Shown here piece after piece: positions 1,816-64,000 of a DNA stretch of 64,000 bases. Source of the DNA: Agelas oroides (taxonomy: Eukaryota; Porifera; Demospongiae; Agelasida; Agelasidae); NCBI GenBank assembly GCA_949130485.1, contig OX422193.1, positions 2,606,371 through 2,670,370 on the forward strand, written 5' to 3'. Below the pieces are notes generated by a model. That model did no database searches, had not been told where the DNA came from, and was given only the letters and a program-made list of their open reading frames with translations. Both the position numbers and the translations under genes were made by a program. The number at the start of each line of letters is the position of its first letter. Within the stretch, counting starts at the first letter, position 1.

Positions 1816-4800
1816 AGTCGACCCCACTCTACCTCACTCTACCACACTCTACCCTGGCTCGACCCGACTCTACGTCACTCTACCACACTCTACCCTGTCT
1901 TGACCCGATTCTACCTCATTCTACCACATCCTACCCTGGCTCGACCCGACTTTACCTCACTCTACCATACTCTACCCTGGCTAAACCAGGCTCTACCTCA
2001 CTCTACCACACTCTACCCTTCCTCGACCCGACTCTACCTCACTCTACCCCACTCTACCACACTCTACCCTGGCTCGACCCGACTCTGCCTCACTCTACCA
2101 CACTCTACCCTTGCTCTGCCCGACTCTTCCTCACTCTACCACAATCTACCCTGGCTCAACCCGACTCTACCTCACTCTACCACCTTCTACCCTGGCTCGA
2201 CCCGACCCTACCACACTCTACCCGACTCTACCTCACTCTAACACACTCCACCCCGACTCTACCTCACTCTACCACACTCTACCCTGGGTCGAACCGATTC
2301 TACCTCAGTCTACCACACTCTACCCTGGATCGACCCGACTCTACCTCACTCTATCACACTCTACCCTGGCTCGACCCGACTCTACCTCACTCTAACACTC
2401 TCTACCCTGGCTCAAACCGACTCTACCTCACTCTACCACATTTTACCCTGGCTCGACCCGACTCTACCTCACTCTACCACACTCTGCCCTGGCTCGACCC
2501 GACTCTACCTCACTTTACCACATTCTACCCTGGCTCGACCCGACTCTACCTCTCTCTACCACACTCTACCCTGGCTCGACCCGACTCTCCCTCACACTAC
2601 CTCACTCTACCACCCTCTACCTTGGGTCGACCCGACTCTACCTCACTCTACCACACTCTACCCAGGCTCGACCCGACTCTACCTCACTCTACCACACTCT
2701 ACCCTGGCTCGACCCGACTCCACCTCACTGTACCACACTCTACCCCGACTCTATATCACTCTACCTCACTCTACCTTGACTCTACCTCACTCTACCACAC
2801 TCTACCCAGGCTCGACACGACTCTACCTCACTCTACCACACTCTACCTTGGCTCCACCCGACTCTACCTCACTCTACCACACTCTATTCTGGCTCGACGA
2901 GACCCTACAACACTCTACCACACTTTCCCCTAGCTCAACCCGACTCTACCTCACTCTACCACGCTCTACCCCGACTCTACCTCACTCTACCACACTCTAC
3001 CCTTACTCTACCTCACTCTACCCTTACTCTACCTCAATCTACCTCACTCTACCCTGGCTCAACCCGACTCTCTATCACTCTACCACACTCTACCCTTGCT
3101 CCACCCGACTCTACCTCACTCTACCACACTCTACCACACTCTACACCGACTCTACATCACTCTACCACTCTCTTCCCCGACTCTACCTCACTCTGCCACA
3201 CTCTACCCTGGCTCGACCAGACACACCCTCACTCTACCACACTCTGCCATGGCTCGACACGACTCTACCTCACTCTACCACACTCTACCCCGACTCTACC
3301 TCTCTCTACCTCACTCTACCTTGACTCTACCTCACTCTACCACACTCTACCCTGGCTCTACCCGAGTCTACCTCACTCTGCCACAATCTACCCTGGCTCA
3401 ACCTGACTCTACCTCATTCTACAGCCTTCTACCCTGGCTCGACCCAACTCTACCGCACTCTACCCGACTCTACCTCACGCTAACCCACTCTACCCCAACT
3501 CTACCTCACACTACCACACTCTATCCTGGCTCGAACCGGCTCCACCTCAGTCTACCACACTCTACCCTGGCTCGACCTGACTCTACCTCACTCTACCACA
3601 CTCTATCCTGGCTCAAGCCGACTCTACCTCACTCTACCACATTCTACCCTCGCTCGACCCGACTCTACCTCACTCTACCACACTCTACCGCGACTCTACC
3701 TCACTCTACCACACTCTACCCTGGCTCATCCCAACTCTAACCCACTCTACCACACTCTACCCTGGCTCGACCCGACTCTACGTCACTCTACCACACTCTA
3801 CCCTGGCTCGACCCGATTCTACCTCATTCTACCACATCCTACCCTGGCTCGACCCGACTCTACCTCACTCTACCACACTCTACCCTGGCTCAACCCGGCT
3901 CTACCCCACTCTACCACACTCTACCCTTCCTCGACCCGACTCTACCTCACTCTACCCCAATCTACCCTGGCTCGACCTGACACTACCTCACTCTACCTCA
4001 CTCTACCCTGGCTCAAACCGACTCTACCACACTCTACCACATTCTACCCTGGATCGACCCGACTCTACCTTTCTCTAACACACTCTACCATGGATCGACC
4101 CGACTCTACCTCACCCTACCTCACTCTACCACACTCTACCCTGGGTCGACCCAACTCTACCTCACTCTACCACACTCTACCCTGGCTCGACCCGACTCTA
4201 CGTCACTCTACCACACTCTACCCTGGCTCGACCCGATTCTACCTCATTCTACCACATCCTACCCTGGCTCGACCCGACTCTACCTCACTCTACCACACTC
4301 TACCCTGGCTCAACCCGGCTCTACCCCACTCTACCACACTCTACCCTTCCTCGACCCGACTCTACCTCACTCTACCCCACTCTACCCTGGCTCGACCTGA
4401 CACTACCTCACTCTACCTCACTCTACCCTGGCTCAAACCGACTCTACCACACTCTACCACATTCTACCCTGGATCGACCCGACTCTACCTCTCTCTAACA
4501 CACTCTACCATGGATCGACCCGACTCTACCTCACCCTACCTCACTCTACCACACTCCACCCTGGGTCGACCCCACTCTACCTCACTCTACCACACTCTAC
4601 CCTGGCTCGACCCGACTCTACGTCACTCTACCACACTCTACCCTGTCTCGACCCGATTCTACCTCATTCTATCACATCCTACACTGGCTCGACTCGACTC
4701 TACCTCACTCTACCACACTCTACCCTGGCTCAACCAGGCTCTACCTCACTCTACCACACTCTACCCTTCCTCAACCCGACTCTACCTCACTCTACCCCAC

Positions 4801-51205: not shown

Positions 51206-53937
51206 CTCTATCACACTCTACCCTGGCTCGGCCAGACTCTACCTCACTCTACCACACTCTACTCTGGCTCGAGACGACTCGACCTCACTCTAACACTCTC
51301 TACCCTGGCTCAAACCGACTCTACCTCACTCTACCACATTCCACCCTGGCTCGACACGACTCTATCTCACTCTACCACACTCTGCCCTGGCTCAACCCGA
51401 CTCTACCTCACCCTACCTCACTATACCACACTCTACCCTCGCTCGACCCGACTCTACCTCACTCTACCACACTCTACCATGGTTCGACCCGACTCTCCCT
51501 CAATCTACCACACTCTACCCTGGCTCGACCCAACTCTACCTCACTCTACCATGCTCTACCCCGACTCTACCTCACTCTACCACACTCTATCCTTACTCTA
51601 CCTCAATTTACCCCACTCTACCCTGGCTAAACCCGACTCTCTATCACTCTACCACACTCTGCCCTGACTCGACCCAACTCTACCTCAATCTACCACACTC
51701 TACCCTGGGTCGACCGGACTCTACCTCACTCTACCACACTCTACCCTAGCTCGATCCGACACTACCTCACTCTACCACACTCTACCATGGTTCGACCCAA
51801 CTCTCCCTCACTCTACCACACTCTACACTGGCTCGACCCGACTCTACCTCACTCTACCATGCTCTAACCCGACTCTACCTCACTCAACCACACCCTACCT
51901 TTACTATACTTCAATCTACCACAATCTACTCTGGCTCAACCCGACTCTACTTCACTCTACCACCATCTAACCTGGCTCGACCCGACTCTCCTCCACACTC
52001 AACCCGACTCTACCTCACTCTACCACACTCTACCCTGGCTCGACCCGACTCTACCTCAGTATACCACACTTTACCCTGGCTCGACCCGACTCTACCTCAT
52101 TCCACCACACTCTACCCTGGCTCGACCCGACTCTACCTCACCCTACCACACTCTTCCCCGACTCTACCTCACTCTACAACACTCTAATCTGGCTCGACCC
52201 GACTCTACCTCACTCTACCACACTCTACCCTGGCTCGAGACGACTCTACCTCACTCCACCACACTCTACCGTGGTTCGAACAGACTCTACCTCACTCTAC
52301 CACACTCTACCCTGAATCTACCTCACTCTAACACTCTCTTCCCCGACTCTACCTCACTCTACCACACTCTACCCTGGCTCATCCCGACTCTGCCTCACTC
52401 TACCTCACTCTACCCTGGCTCTGCCCGACTCTACCTCACTCTACCACAATCTACCCTGGCTCAACCCAACTCTACCTCACTCTACCCGACTCTACCTCAC
52501 TCTAACACACTCCACCCCGACTCTACCTCACTCTACCACACTCTACCCTGGGTCGAACCGATTCTACCTCAGTCTACCACACTCTACCCTGGATCGACCC
52601 GACTCTACCTCACCCTATCACACTCTACCCTGACTCGACCCGACTCTACCTCACTCTAACACTCTCTACACTGGCTCAAACCGACTCTACCTCACTCTAC
52701 CACATTCTACCCTGGCTCGACCCGACTCTACCTCACTCTACCACACTCTGCCCTGGCTCGACCCGACTCTACCTCACTCTACCACACTGTACCCTGGCTC
52801 AAACCGACTCTACCTCACTCTACCACAATCTACCCTGGCTCGACCCGACTCTACCTCTCTCAACCACACTCTACCCTGGGTCGACCCGACTCTACCTCAC
52901 TCTACCACACTCTACCCTGGTTCGACCCGACTCTACGTCAGTCTACCACACTCTATCCTGGCTGGACCCGACTCTACCTGAATCTACCACACTCTACCCA
53001 GGCTCGACCCGACACTACCTCACTCTACCACACTCTACCCTGGCTCGACCCGACTCTACCTCACTCTACCACACTCTACCCGGACTCTACCTCACTCTAC
53101 CACACTCTACCCTGGCTCATCCCAACTCTAACTCACTCTACCACACTCTACCCTGTCTCGACCCAACTCTACCTCAATCTACCACACTCTACCCCGACTC
53201 TACCTCACTCTACCACATTCTACCTTGGCTAGACCCGACTCTACCTCACTCTACCACACTCTACCCTGGCTCAAGCCGACTCTACCTCACTCTACCACAT
53301 TCTACCCTCGCTCGACCCGACTCTACCTCACTCTACCTCACACTACCCCACTCTATTCTGGCTCGACCTGACCCTACCACACTCTACCCTTACTCTACCT
53401 CAATCTACCTCACTCTACCCTGGCTCAACCCGACTCTCTATCACTCTACCACACTCTACCCTTGCTCCACTCGACTCTACCTCACTCTACCACACTCTAC
53501 CCCGACTCTACCTCACTCTACCACACTATACCCTGGCTCGACCCGACTCTACCTCATTCTATCACACTCTACCACACTCTACACCGACTCTACCTCACTC
53601 TACCACACTCTACCCCGACTCTACCTCACTCTACCACACTATACCCTGGCTCGACCCGACTCTACCTCACTCTACCACACTCTACTCTGGCTCGACCCGA
53701 GTCTACCTCACTCTACCACACTCCACCACACTCTACACCGACTCTACCTCACTCTACCACTCTCTTCCCCGACTCTACCTCACTCTACCACACTCTACCC
53801 TGGCTCGACCAGACACACCCTCACTCTACCACACTCTACCATGGCTCGACACGACTCTACCTCACTCTACCACACTCTACCCTGGCTCGACCAGACACAC
53901 CCTCACTCTACCAACGACAACACCCTCACTCTACAAC
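51206..53937 (+). repeat. Edge zone of the left satellite array
   Basis: The monomers are still recognisable, but I see no kilobase-scale copy of this stretch elsewhere in the window. Variant blocks from different HOR classes are mixed: an ATGGTTCGACCCG block near 51,479, GGTCGAACCGATTC near 52,550 and TTGGCTAGACCCG near 53,224. The last monomers decay into CCAACGACAACACCC before the island. Confidence 0.6.
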
Positions 53938-53940
53938 CCC

Positions 53941-54108
53941 CAGCCCCATTCCCATTTTCGAAAGTTAACCATAGGATACCCCCTTGGTGAAGAGATAATT
54001 GAGCCGGAGGCTGAGGTGGTGGATAGTGAGAGTATCCGCTCAGGCAATGTGCTTGTACAGTCAACCCACCCAGGCCCGCAACCCCATCCGCAGGGGATCT
54101 CCACCTAG
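53941..54108 (+). other. Possible decayed C-terminal coding segment (55 codons plus TAG)
   Basis: From 53,941 a frame reads 55 codons to a TAG at 54,106-54,108. The product is unlike the satellite polypeptide. It starts QPHSHFRKLTIG, has an acidic middle (GEEIIEPEAEVVDSE) and a Pro/His/Gln-rich tail ending PQGIST. The same frame stays open upstream through the array edge back to a TAG at 53,230-53,232, but that part is repeat. I see no ATG that would start the non-repeat part. It could be the end of a gene or of a mobile-element polyprotein whose upstream part was replaced by satellite, or chance. An antisense frame covers the same bases. I do not recognise the family. Confidence 0.25.
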
Positions 54109-54243
54109 CTACCACAGTGTATTTAATTGCGAAAGGAAGGACAGCTGTAGTCAAAAAGACCCCGTCTTTATCCATCTCCACATAGATACATGTGTATAAA
54201 GTATAAAGCCCTCATCCTAACACACTCACACTCGTAATTTAAA
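54109..54243. other. Unique spacer, no gene seen
   Basis: This is non-repetitive sequence between the short open frame and the hairpin array. It contains TATAAAGTATAAAG near 54,194, which resembles a TATA element, but nothing downstream supports a promoter. No RNA gene is recognised. Confidence 0.4.
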
Positions 54244-54779
54244 ATGCGAATGAGCTTCACACCCATAATGTAACTGTAGTAACTCAAGTGTGAATGAGCT
54301 TCAGACTCGTAACGTAACTGTAAGTGAACCTCACAGTAGTAACTCAAGTGTGAATGAACTTCACACTCGTAACGGTGAATGAGCCTCACAGTAGTACATG
54401 TAACTGAAGTGTGAATGAGCTTCACACTCATAATTTAAAAATGTGAATGAGCTTCACACTCGTAACATAACGGTGAATGAGCCTCACAGTGGTAACTCAA
54501 GTGTGAATGAGCTTCACACTCATAACGTAACTGTGAGTGAGCCTCACAGTAGTAACTCAAGTGTGAGTGAGCCTCACACTCGTAATTTTTAATGTGAATG
54601 AGCTTCACACTCGTAACATAACGGTGAATAAGCCTCACAGTGGTAACTCAAGTGTGAATGAGCCTCACACCCGTAGCGTAACTGTGAGTGAGCCTCACAG
54701 TAGTAACTCAAGTGTGAGTGAGCCTCACACTCGTAATTTTTAATGTGAATGAGCTTCACACTGTGAGTGAGCCTCGCAG
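54244..54779. repeat. 30-bp hairpin tandem array (18 units)
   Basis: Each unit is a 7-bp inverted repeat around a 5-nt loop plus an 11-13-nt linker containing GTAAC or GTAAT. Units start at 54244, 54288, 54318, 54348, 54373, 54409, 54441, 54471, 54501, 54531, 54561, 54592, 54622, 54652, 54682, 54712, 54743 and 54761. The spacing is mostly 30 bp. Perfect stems occur as GTGTGAA/TTCACAC (54348, 54409, 54501), CTGTGAG/CTCACAG (54531, 54682) and GTGTGAG/CTCACAC (54561, 54712). The loop is TGAGC in nearly all units. A five-unit, 151-bp higher-order period is visible (54,441 to 54,592 to 54,743). Short minus-strand open frames here are by-products of the repeat. Confidence 0.9.
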
Positions 54780-54981
54780 ATAACGCAGAGCAGCCCCAAC
54801 CCCTAGCTCAGCCTTATGGAACCGACTACAGCCCTAGGCGTACCGTTACTATAGTAAAGCACACGCCATAACTAGCGTAACAATGCCGTTACTAGGATAG
54901 GTACGCCGTTACTAAGAGAAGCACGCTCCCATTTAAAGCCCGTCGACCGAGTATCACGCACAAACAACTAATAATACTCAC
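54780..54981. other. Unique segment with three CCGTTACTA copies
   Basis: This is non-satellite sequence. The 9-mer CCGTTACTA occurs at about 54,843, 54,886 and 54,906. The first and third copies are each followed within a few bases by AAGCAC. No gene is recognised. If the candidate exon at 54,982-55,119 is real, this stretch would be its intron. Confidence 0.45.
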
Positions 54982-55119
54982 CGTGAGATGGTCGCCGCAG
55001 TACTGACCCGAATTATCTTCGGTACAGGAGCGCCTACCAGCGAAGAACAAGCCTCCCAGACGTTCCACCAAGACGACACGATAGCGAGCCAGAATCCCGT
55101 ACGTTAACCGTTCGCCCAT
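54982..55119 (-). CDS. Candidate first coding exon ending in a consensus splice donor
   Basis: On the minus strand an ATG at 55,119 opens 46 codons and ends at a strong donor, ACG followed by GTGAGTATT, with the exon end at 54,982 and the intron starting at 54,981. The bases around the ATG (GGGATGG, with G at -3 and +4) fit a good eukaryotic start context. The peptide begins MGERLTYGILARYR, has a short hydrophobic patch (GGLFFAG) and ends in a polar stretch with two cysteines. The frame reads 29 codons past the donor to a stop, so splicing is not required to keep it open. I do not recognise the protein and cannot place a following exon. A chance open frame is quite possible. Confidence 0.22.
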
Positions 55120-55410
55120 CCCCCTAGTTATTATAAGTTAATATGATAACTCCACCCATTGAGCCCCACCCCCAATTTGTTTAGTAATTTGAATATTTAT
55201 AGCACTGTGAATGCCCATAGCACTATGTGCCAACCAAAAGCTGGGCTCCTCAAAGCAAACCTTAGGCGGGGAGTGGTCCCGCCCTTTCTGTAATAGGCCA
55301 CGGGTCGGGAGTTCAAAGGGACCGAAACCCGTGGTCATGCGCGGACCGGAAAGGGTACTCCCCTGAAGACCAGTATTTTTTGAGCATATCTCCCAAAAAC
55401 AGTAACTAAC
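55120..55410. other. Unique segment, no supported gene
   Basis: This is mixed-composition sequence between the candidate exon and the 24-bp repeat. A minus-strand open frame of 102 codons spans most of it, but its start lies inside the tandem repeat and it shows no recognisable domain. A short partly inverted pair, ACGGGTCGGGAGTTC and GGACCGAAACCCGTGG, is visible near 55,309-55,338. Nothing else is supported. Confidence 0.4.
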
Positions 55411-55575
55411 CGCCCCATCCATTTGAGCCATAAATGCCCCACCCATTTAAGTCATAAATACCACACCCATTTAAGCCATAAAATGCCCCACCCATTTAAG
55501 CCATAAATGCCCCACCCACCCATTTAAGCCATAAAATGCCCCATCCATCTAAGCCATAAATGCCCCATCCCCATC
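55411..55575. repeat. 24-25-bp minisatellite, ~6.5 units
   Basis: The unit reads GCCCCACCCATTTAA followed by GCCATAAAT, with small variants (ATTTGAGCC, ATTTAAGTC, ATCTAAGCC) and 24- or 25-bp spacing depending on AAAT or AAAAT. One unit has an extra CACC. It is unrelated to the satellite monomer. Confidence 0.85.
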
Positions 55576-55588
55576 TCTATGTTTTAAC

Positions 55589-55611
55589 TTCACACTTTAT
55601 GTATGTGTGAA
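55589..55611. other. Isolated inverted repeat TTCACAC-9-GTGTGAA
   Basis: A perfect 7-bp inverted repeat has arms TTCACAC and GTGTGAA and a 9-nt spacer. The arm heptamer is the same as in the hairpin array 1 kb upstream, but here the arms are in the opposite order. It may be a chance palindrome or a binding site. Confidence 0.5.
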
Positions 55612-55663
55612 ATTTTGAACATCGATGTGCCAGCGGTGTTGGTGCTCCCCCACTCGACATACA

Positions 55664-55703
55664 ACTCTACACCGACTCTACTTCACTCTACCACTCTCTT
55701 CCA
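55664..55703 (+). repeat. 40-bp satellite remnant left of the transposon
   Basis: The sequence ACTCTACACCGACTC, then a TTCACTC variant, then TACCACTCTCTTCCA matches the last 40 bp before the boundary of each 1,221-bp HOR unit (57,407-57,446 and 58,628-58,667), with one mismatch seen. It shows that the transposon landed in satellite DNA and that the island-satellite junction lies just to its left. Confidence 0.85.
55697..55703. other. Target-site duplication, left copy (TCTTCCA)
   Basis: TCTTCCA directly precedes the element and is repeated at 56,219-56,225 directly after it. Uninterrupted sites CTCTTCCACGACTC occur at about 57,439 and 58,660. Depending on whether the element begins at CATAGG (55,702) or TAGG (55,704), the duplication is 5 or 7 bp. 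Confidence 0.8.
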
Positions 55704-55971
55704 TAGGCGTAGGAAGCAAAGTGGAAGTGTAGAGGCCGTGCGAAGCGCCGCTGAAAATTTTGTAGTTGATGATTTCTCCGCGCGTAGCGCGGCGGCAAAT
55801 TTATCAAAAGTGCGCACCTTTAGACTACAAAATAAAGCATTTTTTTCAAGGGTATATAATATCCCCGCCTCGTTCTCAGACCTTCCCAACTGTCTCAAGA
55901 CTCAATTTACGTGGAAATCAGTAAGATCATAAATTCACTGTCGTCCCTGGAGACCGCCCAGCTTTTCGTCG

Positions 55972-56035
55972 CTAGCCATAGTGGTCAGTGCTCATTAGCC
56001 TCCTGCTAAGGCCGCTCCACCGGCAAGATTTGACA
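55972..56035 (+). other. tRNA-like segment within the element (weak)
   Basis: GCTAGCCATAGTGGTCAGTG resembles the D-arm/A-box region of a tRNA, and a possible anticodon-arm stem TTAGC-CTCCT-GCTAA follows. A convincing B-box (GGTTCGA-type) is absent. If real, this is a decayed tRNA-derived (SINE-like) piece inside the element, not a functional tRNA. Confidence 0.25.
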
Positions 56036-56059
56036 GTGTACCTTTTAAGTGTAAATGTA

Positions 56060-56077
56060 CGCATGCTACTGCATGCG
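56060..56077. other. Perfect hairpin CGCATGC-TACT-GCATGCG
   Basis: A 7-bp perfect stem with a 4-nt loop lies inside the transposon-like element. It is immediately followed by two 17-bp direct repeats (ACTGCTCCAACGAAGAG and its one-base variant) at 56,080-56,113. Confidence 0.8.
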
Positions 56078-56173
56078 AGACTGCTCCAACGAAGAGACTG
56101 CTACAACGAAGAGGCTGCTGAGCTATAAGTAACTTATAGCAGGTTATGAATATTAATTTTTGGCCTAAAAAGT

Positions 56174-56193
56174 GTAGCGGCCAAAGCCGCTAC
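56174..56193. other. Subterminal hairpin GTAGCGGC-CAAA-GCCGCTAC
   Basis: An 8-bp perfect stem with a 4-nt loop lies about 25 bp inside the right end of the element. It is followed by the short direct repeat CCGCTACGG. Such subterminal palindromes are common in non-autonomous DNA elements. Confidence 0.8.
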
Positions 56194-56218
56194 GGCCGCT
56201 ACGGTTCCTACGCCACTG

Positions 56219-56225: not shown

Positions 56226-57439
56226 CGACTCTACCTCACTCTACCACACTCTACCCTGGCTCGACCAGACTCTACCTCACTCTACCACACTCTACCATGG
56301 CTCGCCATGACTCTACCTCACTCTACCACACCCTATTCTGGCTCGACCCGACTCTACCTCACTCTACCACAATCTACCCTGGCTCGACCCGACTCTACCT
56401 CACTCTACCACACTCTACCCTGGCTCGACCCGACTCTACCTCACTCTTCCACACTCTACCCTTGCTGCACCCGACTCTACCTCACTCTACCTCACTCTAC
56501 CACACTCTACCATGGCTCGCCATGACTCTACCTCACTCTACCACACCCTATTCTGGCTCGACCCGACTCTACCTCACTCTACCACACTCTACCCTGGCTC
56601 CACCCGACTCTACCTCACTCTACCACACTCTACCCTATTTTCACCCGACTCTCCCTCACTCTACCACACTCTACCCTTGCTGCACCCGACTCTACCTCAC
56701 TCTACCACGCTCTACCCCGACTCTACCTCACTCTACCACACTCTACCCTTACTCTACCTCAATCTACCACACTCTACCCTGGTTCAACCAGACTCTCTAT
56801 CACACTACCACACTCTACCCTGCCTCCACCCGACTCTACCTCACTCTACCACACTCTAACCTAGCTCGACCCGACTCTACCTCACTCTACCACACTCTAC
56901 CATGGTTCGACCCGACTCTCCCTCACTCTACCAAACTCTACCCTGGCTCGACCCAACTCTACCTCACTCTACCATGCTCTACCCCGACTCTACCTCACTC
57001 TACCACACTCTACCCTTACTCTACCTCAATCTACCACACTCTACCCTGGCTCAACCCGACTCTCTATCACTCTACCACACTCTGCCCTGACTCGACCCGA
57101 CTCTACCTCAATCTACCACACTCTACCCTGGGTCGACCGGACTCTACCTCACTCTACCACACTCTACCCTAGCTCGACCCGACACTACCTCACTATACCA
57201 CCTTCTACCCTGGCTCGACCCGACCCTACCACACTCTACCCGACTTTACCTCACTCTAACACACTCCACCCCGACTCTACCTCACTCTACCACGCTCTAA
57301 CCCGACTCTACCTCACTCTACCACACCATACCCTGGCTCGACCCGACTCTACCTCACTCTACCACTCTCTACCCTGGCTCGACCCGACTCTACCTCACTC
57401 TACCACACTCTACACCGACTCTACCTCACTCTACCACTC
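56219..57439 (+). repeat. 1,221-bp HOR unit, copy 1
   Basis: This copy begins TCTTCCACGACTC just after the transposon. Landmarks at 56,297, 56,512 and 56,902 recur exactly 1,221 and 2,442 bp later. Only a few substitutions separate it from copy 2, for example GGCTCCACCCG near 56,595 against GGCTCGACCCG. Confidence 0.92.
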
Positions 57440-58660
57440 TCTTCCACGACTCTACCTCACTCTACCACACTCTACCCTGGCTCGACCAGACTCTACCTCA
57501 CTCTACCACACTCTACCATGGCTCGCCATGACTCTACCTCACTCTACCACACCCTATTCTGGCTCGACCCGACTCTACCTCACTCTACCACAATCTACCC
57601 TGGCTCGACCCGACTCTACCTCACTCTACCACACTCTACCCTGGCTCGACCCGACTCTACCTCACTCTTCCACACTCTACCCTTGCTGCACCCGACTCTA
57701 CCTCACTCTACCTCACTCTACCACACTCTACCATGGCTCGCCATGACTCTACCTCACTCTACCACACCCTATTCTGGCTCGACCCGACTCTACCTCACTC
57801 TACCACACTCTACCCTGGCTCGACCCGACTCTACCTCACTCTACCACACTCTACCCTATTTTCACCCGACTCTCCCTCACTCTACCACACTCTACCCTTT
57901 CTGCACCCGACTCTACCTCACTCTACCACGCTCTACCCCGACTCTACCTCACTCTACCACACTCTACCCTTACTCTACCTCAATCTACCACACTCTACCC
58001 TGGTTCAACCAGACTCTCTATCACACTACCACACTCTACCCTGCCTCCACCCGACTCTACCTCACTCTACCACACTCTAACCTAGCTCGACCCGACTCTA
58101 CCTCACTCTACCACACTCTACCATGGTTCGACCCGACTCTCCCTCACTCTACCACACTCTACCCTGGCTCGACCCAACTCTACCTCACTCTACCATGCTC
58201 TACCCCGACTCTACCTCACTCTACCACACTCTACCCTTACTCTACCTCAATCTACCACACTCTACCCTGGCTCAACCCGACTCTCTATCACTCTACCACA
58301 CTCTGCCCTGACTCGACCCGACTCTACCTCAATCTACCACACTCTACCCTGGGTCGACCGGACTCTACCTCACTCTACCACACTCTACCCTAGCTCGACC
58401 CGACACTACCTCACTATACCACCTTCTACCCTGGCTCGACCCGACCCTACCACACTCTACCCGACTTTACCTCACTCTAACACACTCCACCCCGACTCTA
58501 CCTCACTCTACCACGCTCTAACCCGACTCTACCTCACTCTACCACACCATACCCTGGCTCGACCCGACTCTACCTCACTCTACCACTCTCTACCCTGGCT
58601 CGACCCGACTCTACCTCACTCTACCACACTCTACACCGACTCTACCTCACTCTACCACTC
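57440..58660 (+). repeat. 1,221-bp HOR unit, copy 2
   Basis: This is an exact-length tandem copy of 56,219-57,439. Its left boundary is an uninterrupted version of the transposon target site (CTCTCTTCCACG). Confidence 0.92.
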
Positions 58661-59840
58661 TCTTCCACGACTCTACCTCACTCTACCACACTCTACCCTG
58701 GCTCGACCAGACTCTACCTCACCCTACCACACTCTACCATGGCTCGCCATGACTCTACCTCACTCTACCACACCCTATTCTGGCTCGACCCGACTCTACC
58801 TCACTCTACCACAATCTACCCTGGCTCGACCCGACTCTACCTCACTCTACCACACTCTACCCTGGCTCGACCCGACTCTACCTCACTCTTCCACACTCTA
58901 CCCTTGCTGCACCCGACTCTACCTCACTCTACCTCACTCTACCACACTCTACCATGGCTCGCCATGACTCTACCTCACTCTACCACACCCTATTCTGGCT
59001 CGACCCGACTCTACCTCACTCTACCACACTCTACCCTGGCTCGACCCGACTCTACCTCACTCTACCACACTCTACCCTATTTTCACCCGACTCTCCCTCA
59101 CTCTACCACACTCTACCCTTTCTGCACCCGACTCTACCTCACTCTACCACGCTCTACCCCGACTCTACCTCACTCTACCACACTCTACCCTTACTCTACC
59201 TCAATCTACCACACTCTACCCTGGTTCAACCAGACTCTCTATCACACTACCACACTCTACCCTGCCTCCACCCGACTCTACCTCACTCTACCACACTCTA
59301 ACCTAGTTCGACCCGACTCTACCTCACTCTACCACACTCTACCATGGTTCGACCCGACTCTCCCTCACTCTACCACACTCTACCCTGGCTCGACCCAACT
59401 CTACCTCACTCTACCATGCTCTACCCCGCCTCAACCTCACTCTACCACACTCTACCCTTACTCTACCTCAATCTACCACACTCTACCCTGGCTCAACCCG
59501 ACTCTCTATCACTCTACCACACTCTGCCCTGACTCGACCCGACTCTACCTCAATCTACCACACTCTACCCTGGGTCGACCGGACTCTACCTCACTCTACC
59601 ACACTCTACCCTAGCTCGACCCGACACTACCTCACTATACCACCTTCTACCCTGGCTCGACCCGACCCTACCACACTCTACCCGACTCTACCTCACTCTA
59701 ACACACTCCACCCCGACTCTACCTCACTCTACCACGCTCTAACCCGACTCTACCTCACTCTACCACACCATACCCTGGCTCGACCCGACTCTACCTCACT
59801 CTACCACTCTCTACCCTGGCTCGACCCGACTCTACCTCAT
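58661..59840 (+). repeat. 1,221-bp HOR unit, copy 3 (end replaced)
   Basis: This copy matches copy 2 with a handful of substitutions until about 59,840. There it switches to CTCATTCTATCACAC monomers instead of completing the final ~40 bp. Its left boundary is a second empty transposon site. Confidence 0.88.
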
Positions 59841-62333
59841 TCTATCACACACTACCCCGACTCTACCCCGACTCTACCTCACTCTACCACACTCTACCCT
59901 GGCTCGACCCGACTCTACCTCACTCTACCACTCTCTACCCTTGCTCGACCCGACTCTACCTCATTCTATCACACACTACCCCGACTCTACCCTGGCTCGA
60001 CCAGACACACCCTCACTCTACCACACTCTACCATGGCTCGACACGACTCTACCTCACTCTACCACACTCTACCCCGACTCTATATCACTCTACCTCACTC
60101 TACCTTGACTCTACCTCACTCTACCACACTCTAATCTGGCTCGACCCGACTCTACCTCACTCTACCACACTCTACCTTGGCTCCACCCGACTCTACCTCA
60201 CTCTACCACACTCTACCCTGGCTCGATCCGACTCTACCTCACTCTACCACACTCTACCACACTCTACACCGACTATACCTCACTCTACCACTCTCTTCCC
60301 CGACTCTACCTCACACTACCACACTCTACCCTGGCTTGACCAGACACACCCTCACTCTACCACACTCTACCATGGCTCGACACGACTCTACCTCACTCTA
60401 CCACACTCTACCCGGGCTCGAGACGACTCTACCTCACTCCACCACACTCTACCGTGGCTCGAACAGACTCTACCTCACTCTACCACACTCTACCCTGACT
60501 CTACCTCACTCTGCCACATTCTACCCTGGCTCGACACGAATCTACCTCACTCTACCACACTCTACCCTAGCTCGACCCGACTCTACCTCACTCTACCACA
60601 CTCTACACCGACTCTACCTCACTCTAACACTCTCTTCCCCGACTCTACCTCACTCTACCACACTCTACCCTGGCTCATCCCGACTCTGCCTCACTCTACC
60701 TCACTCTACCCTGGCTTGAACCGACTCTACCTCACTCTACCACACTCTACCCCGACTCTACCTCACTCTACCACACTCTACCTTGGATAGACCCGACTCT
60801 ACCTCACTCCACCATACCCTACCCAGCCTAGACCAGAATCTACCTGACTCTACCACACTCTACCCTGTCTCGACCCGACTCCACCTCACTCTACCACAAT
60901 CTACCCCGACTCTACCTCACTCTACCACACTCTACCCTGGATCAACCCGACTCTACCTCACTCTACCACACTCTACCCTGGCTTCAGACGACTCTACCTC
61001 ACTCTACCACACTCTACCGTGGTTCGACCCGACTCTACCTCACTCTACCACACTCTACCCTGACTCTACCTCACTCTGCCACACTCTACCCTGGCTCGAC
61101 ACGATTCTCCCTCACTCTACCACACTCTACCCTGGCTCGACCCGACTCTACCTCACTCTACCACACTCTACACCGACTCTACCTCACTCTACCACTCTCT
61201 TCCACGACTCTACCTCACTCTACCACACTCTACCCTGGCTCGACCAGACTCTACCTCAGTCTACCACACTCTACCATGGCTCGACACCACTCTACCTCAC
61301 TCTACCACACTCTACCCTGACTCTACCTCACTGTAACTCACTCTACCTTCAGTCTACCTCACTCTACTACACTCTACCCTGGCTCGACCCGACTCTACCT
61401 CACTCTACCACACACTACCCTGCCTCCACCCTACTCTACCTCACTCTACCACACCCTATTCTGGCTCGACCCGACTCTACCTCACTCTACCACACTCTAC
61501 CCTGGCTCGACCCGACTCTACCTCACTCTTCCACACTCTACCCTTGCTGCACCCGACTCTACCTCACTCTACCACACTCTACCTCACTCTACCACACTCT
61601 ACCCTTACTCTACCTCAATCTACCGCACTCCACCCTGGCTCAACCAGACTCTCTATCACACTACCACACTCTACCCTGCCTCCACCAGATTCTACCTCAC
61701 TCTACCACACTCTACCCTGGCTCGACCCGACTCTACCTCACTCTACCACACTCTACCCTAGCTCGACCCGACTCTACCTCACTCTACCACTCTCTACCCT
61801 GGATCGACCGGACTCTACCTCACTCTACCACACTCTACCCTGCCTCCACCCGACTCTACCTCACTCTACCACACTCTAACCTAGCTCGAGCCGACTCTAC
61901 CTCACTCTACCACACTCTACCATGGTTCGACCCGACTCTCCCTCACTCTACCACACTCTACCCTGGCTCGACCCAACTCTACCTCACTCTACCATGCTCT
62001 ACCCCGCCTCTACCTCACTCTACCACACTCTACCCTTACTCTACCTCAATCTACCACACTCTACCCTGGCTCAACCCGACTCTCTATCACTCTACCACAC
62101 TCTGCCCTGACTCGACCCGACTCTACCTCAATCTACCACACTCTACCCTGGTTCAACCAGACTCTCTATCACACTACCACACTCTACCCTGCCTCCACCC
62201 GACTCTACCTCACTCTACCACACTCTAACCTAGCTCGACCCGACTCTACCTCACTCTACCACACTCTACCATGGTTCGACCCGACTCTCCCTCACTCTAC
62301 CACACTCTACCCTGGCTCGACCCGACTCTACCT
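59838..62333 (+). repeat. ~2.5 kb HOR unit, copy 1
   Basis: The unit starts CATTCTATCACACACTACC at 59,838, and the same junction recurs at 62,334. Offsets between copies are 2,496 at the start, 2,465 after a 31-bp loss (60,177 to 62,642) and 2,835 after a ~370-bp gain in copy 2 (60,783 to 63,618). Confidence 0.75.
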
Positions 62334-64000
62334 CATTCTATCACACACTACCCCGACTCTACCCCGACTCTACCTCACTCTACCACACTCTACCCTGGCT
62401 CGACACGACTCTACCTCACTCTACCACTCTCTACCCTTGCTCGACCCGACTCTACCCTGGCTCGACCAGACACACCCTCACTCTACCACACTCTACCATG
62501 GCTCGACACGACTCTACCTCACTCTACCACACTCTACCCCGACTCTATATCACTCTACCTCACTCTACCTTGACTCTACCTCACTCTACCACAGTCTAAT
62601 CTGGCTCGACCCGACTCTACCTCACTCTACCACACTCTACCTTGGCTCCACCCGACTCTACCTCACTCTACCACACTCTACCCTGGCTCGATCCGACTCT
62701 ACCTCACTCTACCACACTCTACCACACTCTACACCGACTATACCTCACTCTACCACTCTCTTCCCCGACTCTACCTCACTCTACCACACTCTACCCTGGC
62801 TTGACCAGACACACCCTCACTCTACCACACTCTACCATGGCTCGACACGACTCTACCTCACTCTACCACACTCTACCCCGACTCTATATCAATCTACCTC
62901 ACTCAACCTTGACTCTACCTCACTCTACCACACTCTACCCTGGCTCGACACGACTCTACCTCACTCTACCACACTCTACCTTGGCCCCACCCGACTCTAC
63001 CTCACTCTACCACTCTCTACCCTTGCTTGACCCGACTCTACCTCATTCCACCACACACTACCCCGACTCTACATCAATCTATCCCACTCTACCCTGGCTC
63101 ATCCCGATTCTACCTCACTCTACCACACTCTACCATGGTTCGACTCGACTCTACCTCACTCTACCACACTCTTCCCCGACTCTACCTCACTCTACCACAC
63201 TCTAATCTGGCTCGACCCGACTCTACCTCACTCTACCACACTCTACCCGGGCTCGAGACGACTCTACCTCACTCCACCACACTCTACCGTGGCTCGAACA
63301 GACTCTACCTCACTCTACCACACTCTACCCTGACTCTACCTCACTCTGCCACATTCTACCCTGGCTCGACACGAATCTACCTCACTCTACCACACTCTAC
63401 CCTAGCTCGACCCGACTCTACCTCACTCTACCACACTCTACACCGACTCTACCTCACTCTAACACTCTCTTCCCCGACTCTACCTCACTCTACCACACTC
63501 TACCCTGGCTCATCCCGACTCTGCCTCACTCTACCTCACTCTACCCTGGCTCGAACCGACTCTACCTCACTCTACCACACTCTACCCCGACTCTACCTCA
63601 CTCTACCACACTCTACCTTGGATAGACCCGACTCTACCTCACTCCACCATACCCTACCCAGCCTAGACCAGAATCTACCTGACTCTACCACACTCTACCC
63701 TGTCTCGACCCGACTCCACCTCACTCTACCACAATCTACCCCGACTCTACCTCACTCTACCACACTCTACCCTGGATCAACCCGACTCTACCTCACTCTA
63801 CCACACTCTACCCTGGCTTCAGACGACTCTACCTCACTCTACCACACTCTACCGTGGTTCGACCCGACTCTACCTCACTCTACCACACTCTACCCTGACT
63901 CTACCTCACTCTGCCACACTCTACCCTGGCTCGACACGATTCTCCCTCACTCTACCACACTCTACCCTGGCTCGACCCGACTCTACCTCACTCTACCACA
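62334..64000 (+). repeat. ~2.5 kb HOR unit, copy 2 (cut by window end)
   Basis: This copy follows 59,838 onward. It has one ~31-bp shorter stretch near 62,440 and about 370 bp of extra satellite at roughly 62,875-63,245, then continues in register with copy 1 to the end of the window. Confidence 0.75.

Follow-up and report, generated by a model that had tools for sequence, protein, structure and literature searches.

Is a tandem array of 30-bp hairpins, in which three different fully paired stems occur side by side, a palindrome that has been maintained for its own sake, or do its matched arms have another origin? The array lies in a 64-kb stretch of contig C11 (positions 2606371-2670370; hereafter the window) of a 259-Mb eukaryotic genome assembled in 141 contigs. 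Tandem repeat analysis showed that a ACTCTACC-based satellite makes up almost the entire window. The satellite is broken at about 53.93-56.22 kb by two interruptions, a copy of a dispersed element (53929-55665) followed by another repeat (about 55702-56218). The features are as follows.

1-53881 and 56227-64000: host satellite, very long, of ACTCTACC repeats, with periods of 10, 41, 72 and 113 bp and a strong GC skew
53929-55665, + strand: dispersed element, one copy that lacks its 5' part and covers positions 608-2342 of the 2342-bp unit; it matches the unit of locus L036 at 97.7% identity
53939-54224, + strand: segment present twice, some 410 bp apart, in copies that are less truncated (self match of 286 bp, 98%, in L036); the window retains the second copy only
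54244-54779, + strand: array of 18 hairpin units with a spacing of mostly 30 bp, GTGTGAA/CTGTGAG-TGAGC-TTCACAC/CTCACAG (from the unit listing)
54289-54762, + strand: 151-bp higher-order period of five units (TRF: 3.1 copies, 89% matches)
55412-55567, + strand: second internal tandem repeat of the element, with a 24/53-bp period (tandem repeat analysis)
55638-55665, + strand: fixed 3' end of the element, GTTGGTGCTCCCCCACTCGACATACAAC, an insertion edge or unit junction at the loci read
55702-56218, no strand assigned: separate repeat, roughly 517 bp long, whose terminal inverted repeats (TAGGCGTAGGAA...TTCCTACGCCA) are imperfect; it lies directly downstream of the element and outside it

The separate repeat has relatives elsewhere in the genome at 70-99% identity; the search scored 40 places out of 1411 candidates, with matches spanning all or part of it.

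The palindrome array is genuine, and its pairing is above chance. Exactly 18 units start between 54244 and 54761, and a search allowing up to 4 mismatches found no hairpin units in the remainder of the 64-kb window. The unit listing bears out the first-pass annotation, which had described 7-bp inverted repeats around a TGAGC loop and three stem types (GTGTGAA/TTCACAC, CTGTGAG/CTCACAG and GTGTGAG/CTCACAC). Its counts are also correct; seven of the 18 units (4, 6, 9, 10, 11, 15 and 16) pair over the full 7 bp and three (7, 12 and 17) over the inner 6 bp, while unit 14 pairs over the outer six. Fixed mismatches occur in consensus units 1, 2, 5, 7, 8, 12, 13 and 17. The five-unit, 151-bp period that had been noted was found by TRF alongside the 30-bp period. 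Of all cells in the window array, 88.1% are paired, compared with 80.4% after shuffling of the 3' letters across the 12 distinct units; sliding the partners gave 53.3% at most. The outer and inner pairs do vary on both arms, as had been stated, but the number of such pairs is at the level of the shuffles (2 vs 1.9), and further pair types are not in excess either (3 vs 3.9). Cells changed on both sides number 9 against 4.4 in the shuffles, a value reached in 0/500, although these shuffles take no account of relatedness.

The first-pass annotation had proposed searching the genome for other loci with this unit. Such searches place the array within a dispersed element whose 28-base right end occurs at 652 places (331 + 321; up to 2 mismatches, control 0), a count of units and not of insertions. 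The array is a minisatellite carried by a mobile element that is present in hundreds of copies, not a structure confined to one locus. Using the array as a query gave 57 matches from the best 40 of 412 candidates, and the 621 bases adjoining it gave 43 matches from the best 40 of 1195. We took the 2342-bp element unit from L036 and fetched 20 loci with their flanks, in addition to the window. Right ends agree across loci (...CGACATACAAC), often with a T next, and L025 stops one base sooner. Left ends, by contrast with this fixed end, are scattered along the unit; of the 16 that were read, two (L025 and L041) are fragment edges, and the one closest to position 1 lies at 36. Among the right ends listed, some recur at a constant distance, for example 2258 over three intervals on C12 and 2413 over three on C1. 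A dimer of the element unit has a longest stop-to-stop frame of 122 codons and no coding frame for a reverse transcriptase or GIY-YIG domain. A second family sharing the 3' tail was considered and rejected; the last 15 bases occur exactly at 121 places, and most of the 100 listed are already known element ends.

More diverged relatives of the array exist as well. A genome-wide search for exact matches to the core TGTGARTGAGCYTCACA gave 2141 (control 0). One array (L090) has a 44-bp spacing, another (L089) is dominated by a single 30-bp unit, and a subfamily at L099, which includes L094, carries 8 units at the corresponding place in the element, with about 91% identity in the part preceding the array and 75% over the remainder, array included. 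Element flanks are common to L089, L090, L092, L093 and L096 (matches of 15-54 bases). In the short stretches fetched, L091, L094 and L097 gave no element-flank match, and L095 and L098 gave only 14-18 bases. At L100 (C2:14156060-14157260), sequence unlike the element is followed by 37 units and a cut one, arranged as a 60-bp A-B dimer, and element flanks are absent from the stretch read. Prokaryote and virus contigs gave 36 and 3 stretches with a single hairpin match each, which is no more than chance by rough reckoning; a hairpin common to these groups was set aside.

Because both the outer and the inner pair covary, it had been proposed that the palindrome itself is maintained. We examined the outer pair according to the repeat phase, using 141 distinct 31-mers and two spacer classes (A and B) that were defined after the arrays had been seen. 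In units between unlike spacers (in phase), 72/80 outer pairs are paired, whereas in units between like spacers (out of phase) only 2/11 are; 50 further units with spacers outside both classes were left out, of which 13 are paired. The outer pair covaries because each arm's outer base goes with the adjacent spacer, and the alternation of A and B makes the match. Outer-pair covariation is a product of repeat order, not of selection for the hairpin. This removes one of the two covarying pairs, and what remains of the proposal concerns the inner stem.

Genome-wide, 2077 of the 2141 cores have a Watson-Crick inner pair, the others being 35 A.C and 29 G.T. When both inner letters were left free, 1652 places were found; the 100 listed, all on C1, are all A-T or G-C, and outer mismatches are present among them. 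This agreement may stem from two old haplotypes, as the two letters are 6 bp apart. Selection on the hairpins as a structure that the element needs, either as a fold of RNA or single-stranded cDNA or as half-sites for a dimeric DNA-binding protein, is possible but on balance unlikely, and the evidence points both ways. We compared 32 array sequences, some of which are one place fetched twice, leaving 21 distinct copies of 17 to 23 units each. These show the same succession of pairing states, save for single changes and units gained or lost; the array of L041 exceeds others by exactly 151 bp (723 vs 572). Among the 21 copies, 18/126 pair sites vary, and 0/18 have changed on both sides. Stems are less variable than loops and spacers outside CpG (16/241 vs 36/263 columns; Fisher p 0.012), although this p value is generous since the columns share ancestry and are not independent. 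CpG columns themselves vary in 14/32 cases compared with 52/504 for the others, as expected of a methylated genome.

We also placed 488 units (the 21 arrays plus L089-L098; 110 distinct 27-mers) on a FastTree tree built from 27 columns. Compensated double changes on one branch occur 3 times, against 0.79 expected under this tree-aware null, a number reached in 44/1000 simulations; one of them is at pair 3 in L094. Taking all joint changes together, there is no excess (5 vs 3.47, reached in 257/1000). Changes that break a pair far outnumber those that restore one (42 vs 5, with 17 between unmatched states). At the tips, 653/770 cells match against 483 under the null (reached in 0/1000), to which we give little weight because the null scatters changes over old branches. 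Further against selection stand the fixed mismatches in eight consensus units and a run of outer mismatches, G.G and G.A, in L089. In favour of it, pairs 2-6 are unchanged across the 37 units of L100, where the additional, incomplete unit at the edge of the stretch starts with CGGTGAG. The covariation tests give a mixed answer, with an excess of compensated changes on the tree but no paired change between the 21 copies. Constraint is weakly favoured by the lower variability of stems outside CpG and the compensated excess; we regard additional selection for the inner stem (pairs 2 to 7) as a tentative possibility.

Folding adds a further consideration. With pair spans of up to 30, the window array outperformed its 40 shuffled versions on either strand (z -4.7 and -10.6), whereas the flanking parts of the element folded like shuffled sequence. 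All six arrays folded under this limit (the window, L089-L092 and L099) outperformed their 40 shuffles on either strand, and in 6/6 the better fold was the antisense one. Folded over its full length, L090 in the sense orientation showed no advantage over shuffled sequence (z 0.8). The antisense advantage arises because, of the 13 non-matching cells (pairs 1-7) in the 18 consensus units, 8 read A.C or C.A in the sense orientation and hence G.U in the antisense; among the 110 distinct units, there are likewise 46 A.C and 23 G.T cells. The better antisense folding can be read in favour of selection on structure, but the evidence for a kept stem is weaker on the strand expected to be RNA than on the other.

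The arms could also have been matched by a mutational process without selection, such as template switching within a quasi-palindrome while DNA is copied, or exchange among units, which we consider rather unlikely. L100, a homogeneous array, contains both intermediates of the inner pair (A.C in 4/37 units, G.T in 1/37) side by side with both matched states, and CGGTGAA/CTCACAG resembles a within-loop junction of two types. However, the fixed mismatches persist, and the present data do not tell a mutational process from selection.

On C2, arrays lie on opposite strands at 13545374-13545630 (-) and 13569733-13570289 (+), and again at 14134145-14134643 (-) and 14156166-14157232 (+), the members of each pair being 22-25 kb apart. 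The hairpin could be a binding site common to several kinds of mobile element, with these inverted arrays forming the ends of a large one. The L100 array, with no element flanks in the stretch read, would suit this explanation, as would the two opposite-strand pairs. There are only two such pairs, though, taken from listings of two mismatch variants, and we consider the explanation very unlikely.

How, then, is the element that carries the array copied? Exact head-to-tail unit junctions occur 10 times, in 9 of the 20 loci. At three loci, the upstream unit is more similar to its downstream neighbour than to any other locus compared: at L029 they are identical over 2095 bases (best other locus 99.62%), at L040 99.91% identical (best other 99.37%) and at L033 99.89% (best other 99.66%). 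Elsewhere the picture is less uniform; neighbouring units of L028 are 100% identical over only 386 bases, with ties, those of L034 tie with another locus (99.79%), and those of L026 are unlike (98.82% vs 99.17% to another locus). One template is therefore not required for every multimer. Since units are mostly near-identical within loci and none of the left ends read lies at the unit start, we infer that most multimers came from a multimeric or circular template, although later DNA exchange could have had the same effect.

Flanks were compared for 15 loci plus L099, and a target duplication was counted if it reached both junctions within 8 bp. By this measure, 3 of the 16 loci have one: L038 (59 bp), L037 (108 bp) and L040 (168 bp, with a few differences between the two copies). 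In the other 13 a clean target duplication is absent, and nine of the loci tested show nothing at the junctions. The flanks of L029 and L033 are satellite-like, with repeats that look related to the window satellite, and the 43-bp repeat of L035 lies at a distance from the junctions. For the window copy, a flank match cannot be read as a target duplication, as 96/200 random satellite stretches match as well.

This dispersed element, with its fixed right end, variable left ends, multimers of mostly near-identical units and, in some insertions, long target duplications, is probably a non-coding, non-autonomous retroelement copied from multimeric or circular RNA, with the array as its internal minisatellite. 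A multimeric or circular transcript of the shown strand would serve as the template for an enzyme supplied by another element, with reverse transcription at a staggered nick. Synthesis would begin at a fixed internal site (...CATACAAC), proceed for a variable distance, past the unit boundary, and then halt. The hairpin array would be carried along during this copying, and its unit number would rise and fall by slippage or unequal exchange; periods of 30, 44, 60 and 151 bp are all seen among the arrays. The three stem types could then derive from a 60-bp A-B dimer and a few later changes, with the outer pair tracking the dimer phase.

Several other element classes were considered. A short LTR retrotransposon (TRIM), for which tandem copies are known, would account for the 122-bp direct repeats at both ends of L036 (98.4% identical), but it can be set aside as almost certainly wrong: the left repeat is simply a truncated upstream unit, left ends differ among loci, which rules out an LTR reading of these repeats, the duplications are 59-168 bp and not 4-6, and the repeat neither begins with TG nor ends with CA. 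A Helitron is rejected since the 3' end is CATACAAC, not CTRR, and long target duplications are present. A SINE with a tRNA head was also discarded, as no tRNA gene was called in L036, L029 or L099, though a diverged tRNA head could escape such detection. Rfam searches of L036 and L029 were negative for ribozymes up to E 5, and neither Rfam nor a core-motif scan found a hammerhead, type I included, in the unit. Two weak microRNA matches in L029 reach no further than the left edge.

The proposed retroelement would have to borrow its enzyme, and candidate sources are present in the genome. There are at least 150 reverse transcriptase matches (150 scored of 2738 candidates) and at least 70 GIY-YIG matches (150 scored of 297 candidates); among those scored, 12 GIY-YIG matches lie in open frames of 881-1061 codons (29.6-30.3 bits). 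One of these, L088 (C11:2442500-2448700), is a tandem in which 155 bases are repeated exactly, 3558 bases apart. It contains an 835-residue open frame with a Pfam GIY-YIG match towards the N-terminus (residues 148-237). In the Pfam scan, with a threshold of E 0.01, this frame gave GIY-YIG alone and no reverse transcriptase; we take the remainder of the frame to be a putative Penelope-type reverse transcriptase, and L088 to be probably a Penelope-like element. Within the tandem lies a candidate HH9 hammerhead (3499-3569; E 0.027, 23.2 bits, below the gathering score of 52). The Rfam scan can therefore reveal a hammerhead candidate in this genome, whereas our element gives none. Sequence does not mark L088 as the partner, as it and the unit have no common match above 22 bases.

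Minisatellites internal to transposable elements are known from SVA and from elements of Drosophila virilis. Like these, the present element has a variable number of short repeats and higher-order periods; here, however, most units are palindromic around a nearly fixed loop. Among non-LTR elements, rotifer R9 also has a target duplication above 100 bp, but R9 is coding and rDNA-specific, whereas the element described here is non-coding and dispersed.

By analogy, the element fits a non-autonomous retroelement resembling Penelope-like elements (PLEs) and retrozymes. For one PLE, reverse transcription is described as starting inside the RNA template (PMC11167929). A 5'-truncated upstream copy in a partial tandem is also described, and target duplications of 8-10 bp are given for rotifer Penelope copies (PMC3846280). 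Our element shares the partial head-to-tail tandems with a truncated upstream unit (the 10 junctions in 9/20 loci). Unlike PLEs, it has no coding frame and no detected hammerhead, its duplications are 59-168 bp compared with the 8-10 bp given for the rotifer copies, and it has no sequence in common with L088, the one probable PLE copy read here. Metazoan non-LTR retrozymes are described as non-coding, forming tandem multimers and having longer target duplications than plant retrozymes (PMC7229834), in all of which the element resembles them; its unit is 2342 bp compared with about 170-400, however, and the Rfam and core-motif scans gave no type I hammerhead.

A more specific version would join all of these points: circular or concatemeric RNA multimers made without a hammerhead, a fixed internal start, long staggered target duplications, an obligatory hairpin array acting as the enzyme's recognition site, and a spread of the hairpin into other repeats as a 60-bp dimer satellite. 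Taken as a whole, we regard this joint reading as quite unlikely.

The locus illustrates that repeat phase can mimic compensatory evolution: alternating unlike units give matched arms without selection for pairing. The element itself, gene-less, multimeric, without a known ribozyme, with hundreds of 3' ends and with duplications of 59-168 bp, would offer a tractable case for studying how multimeric retroelement copies originate.
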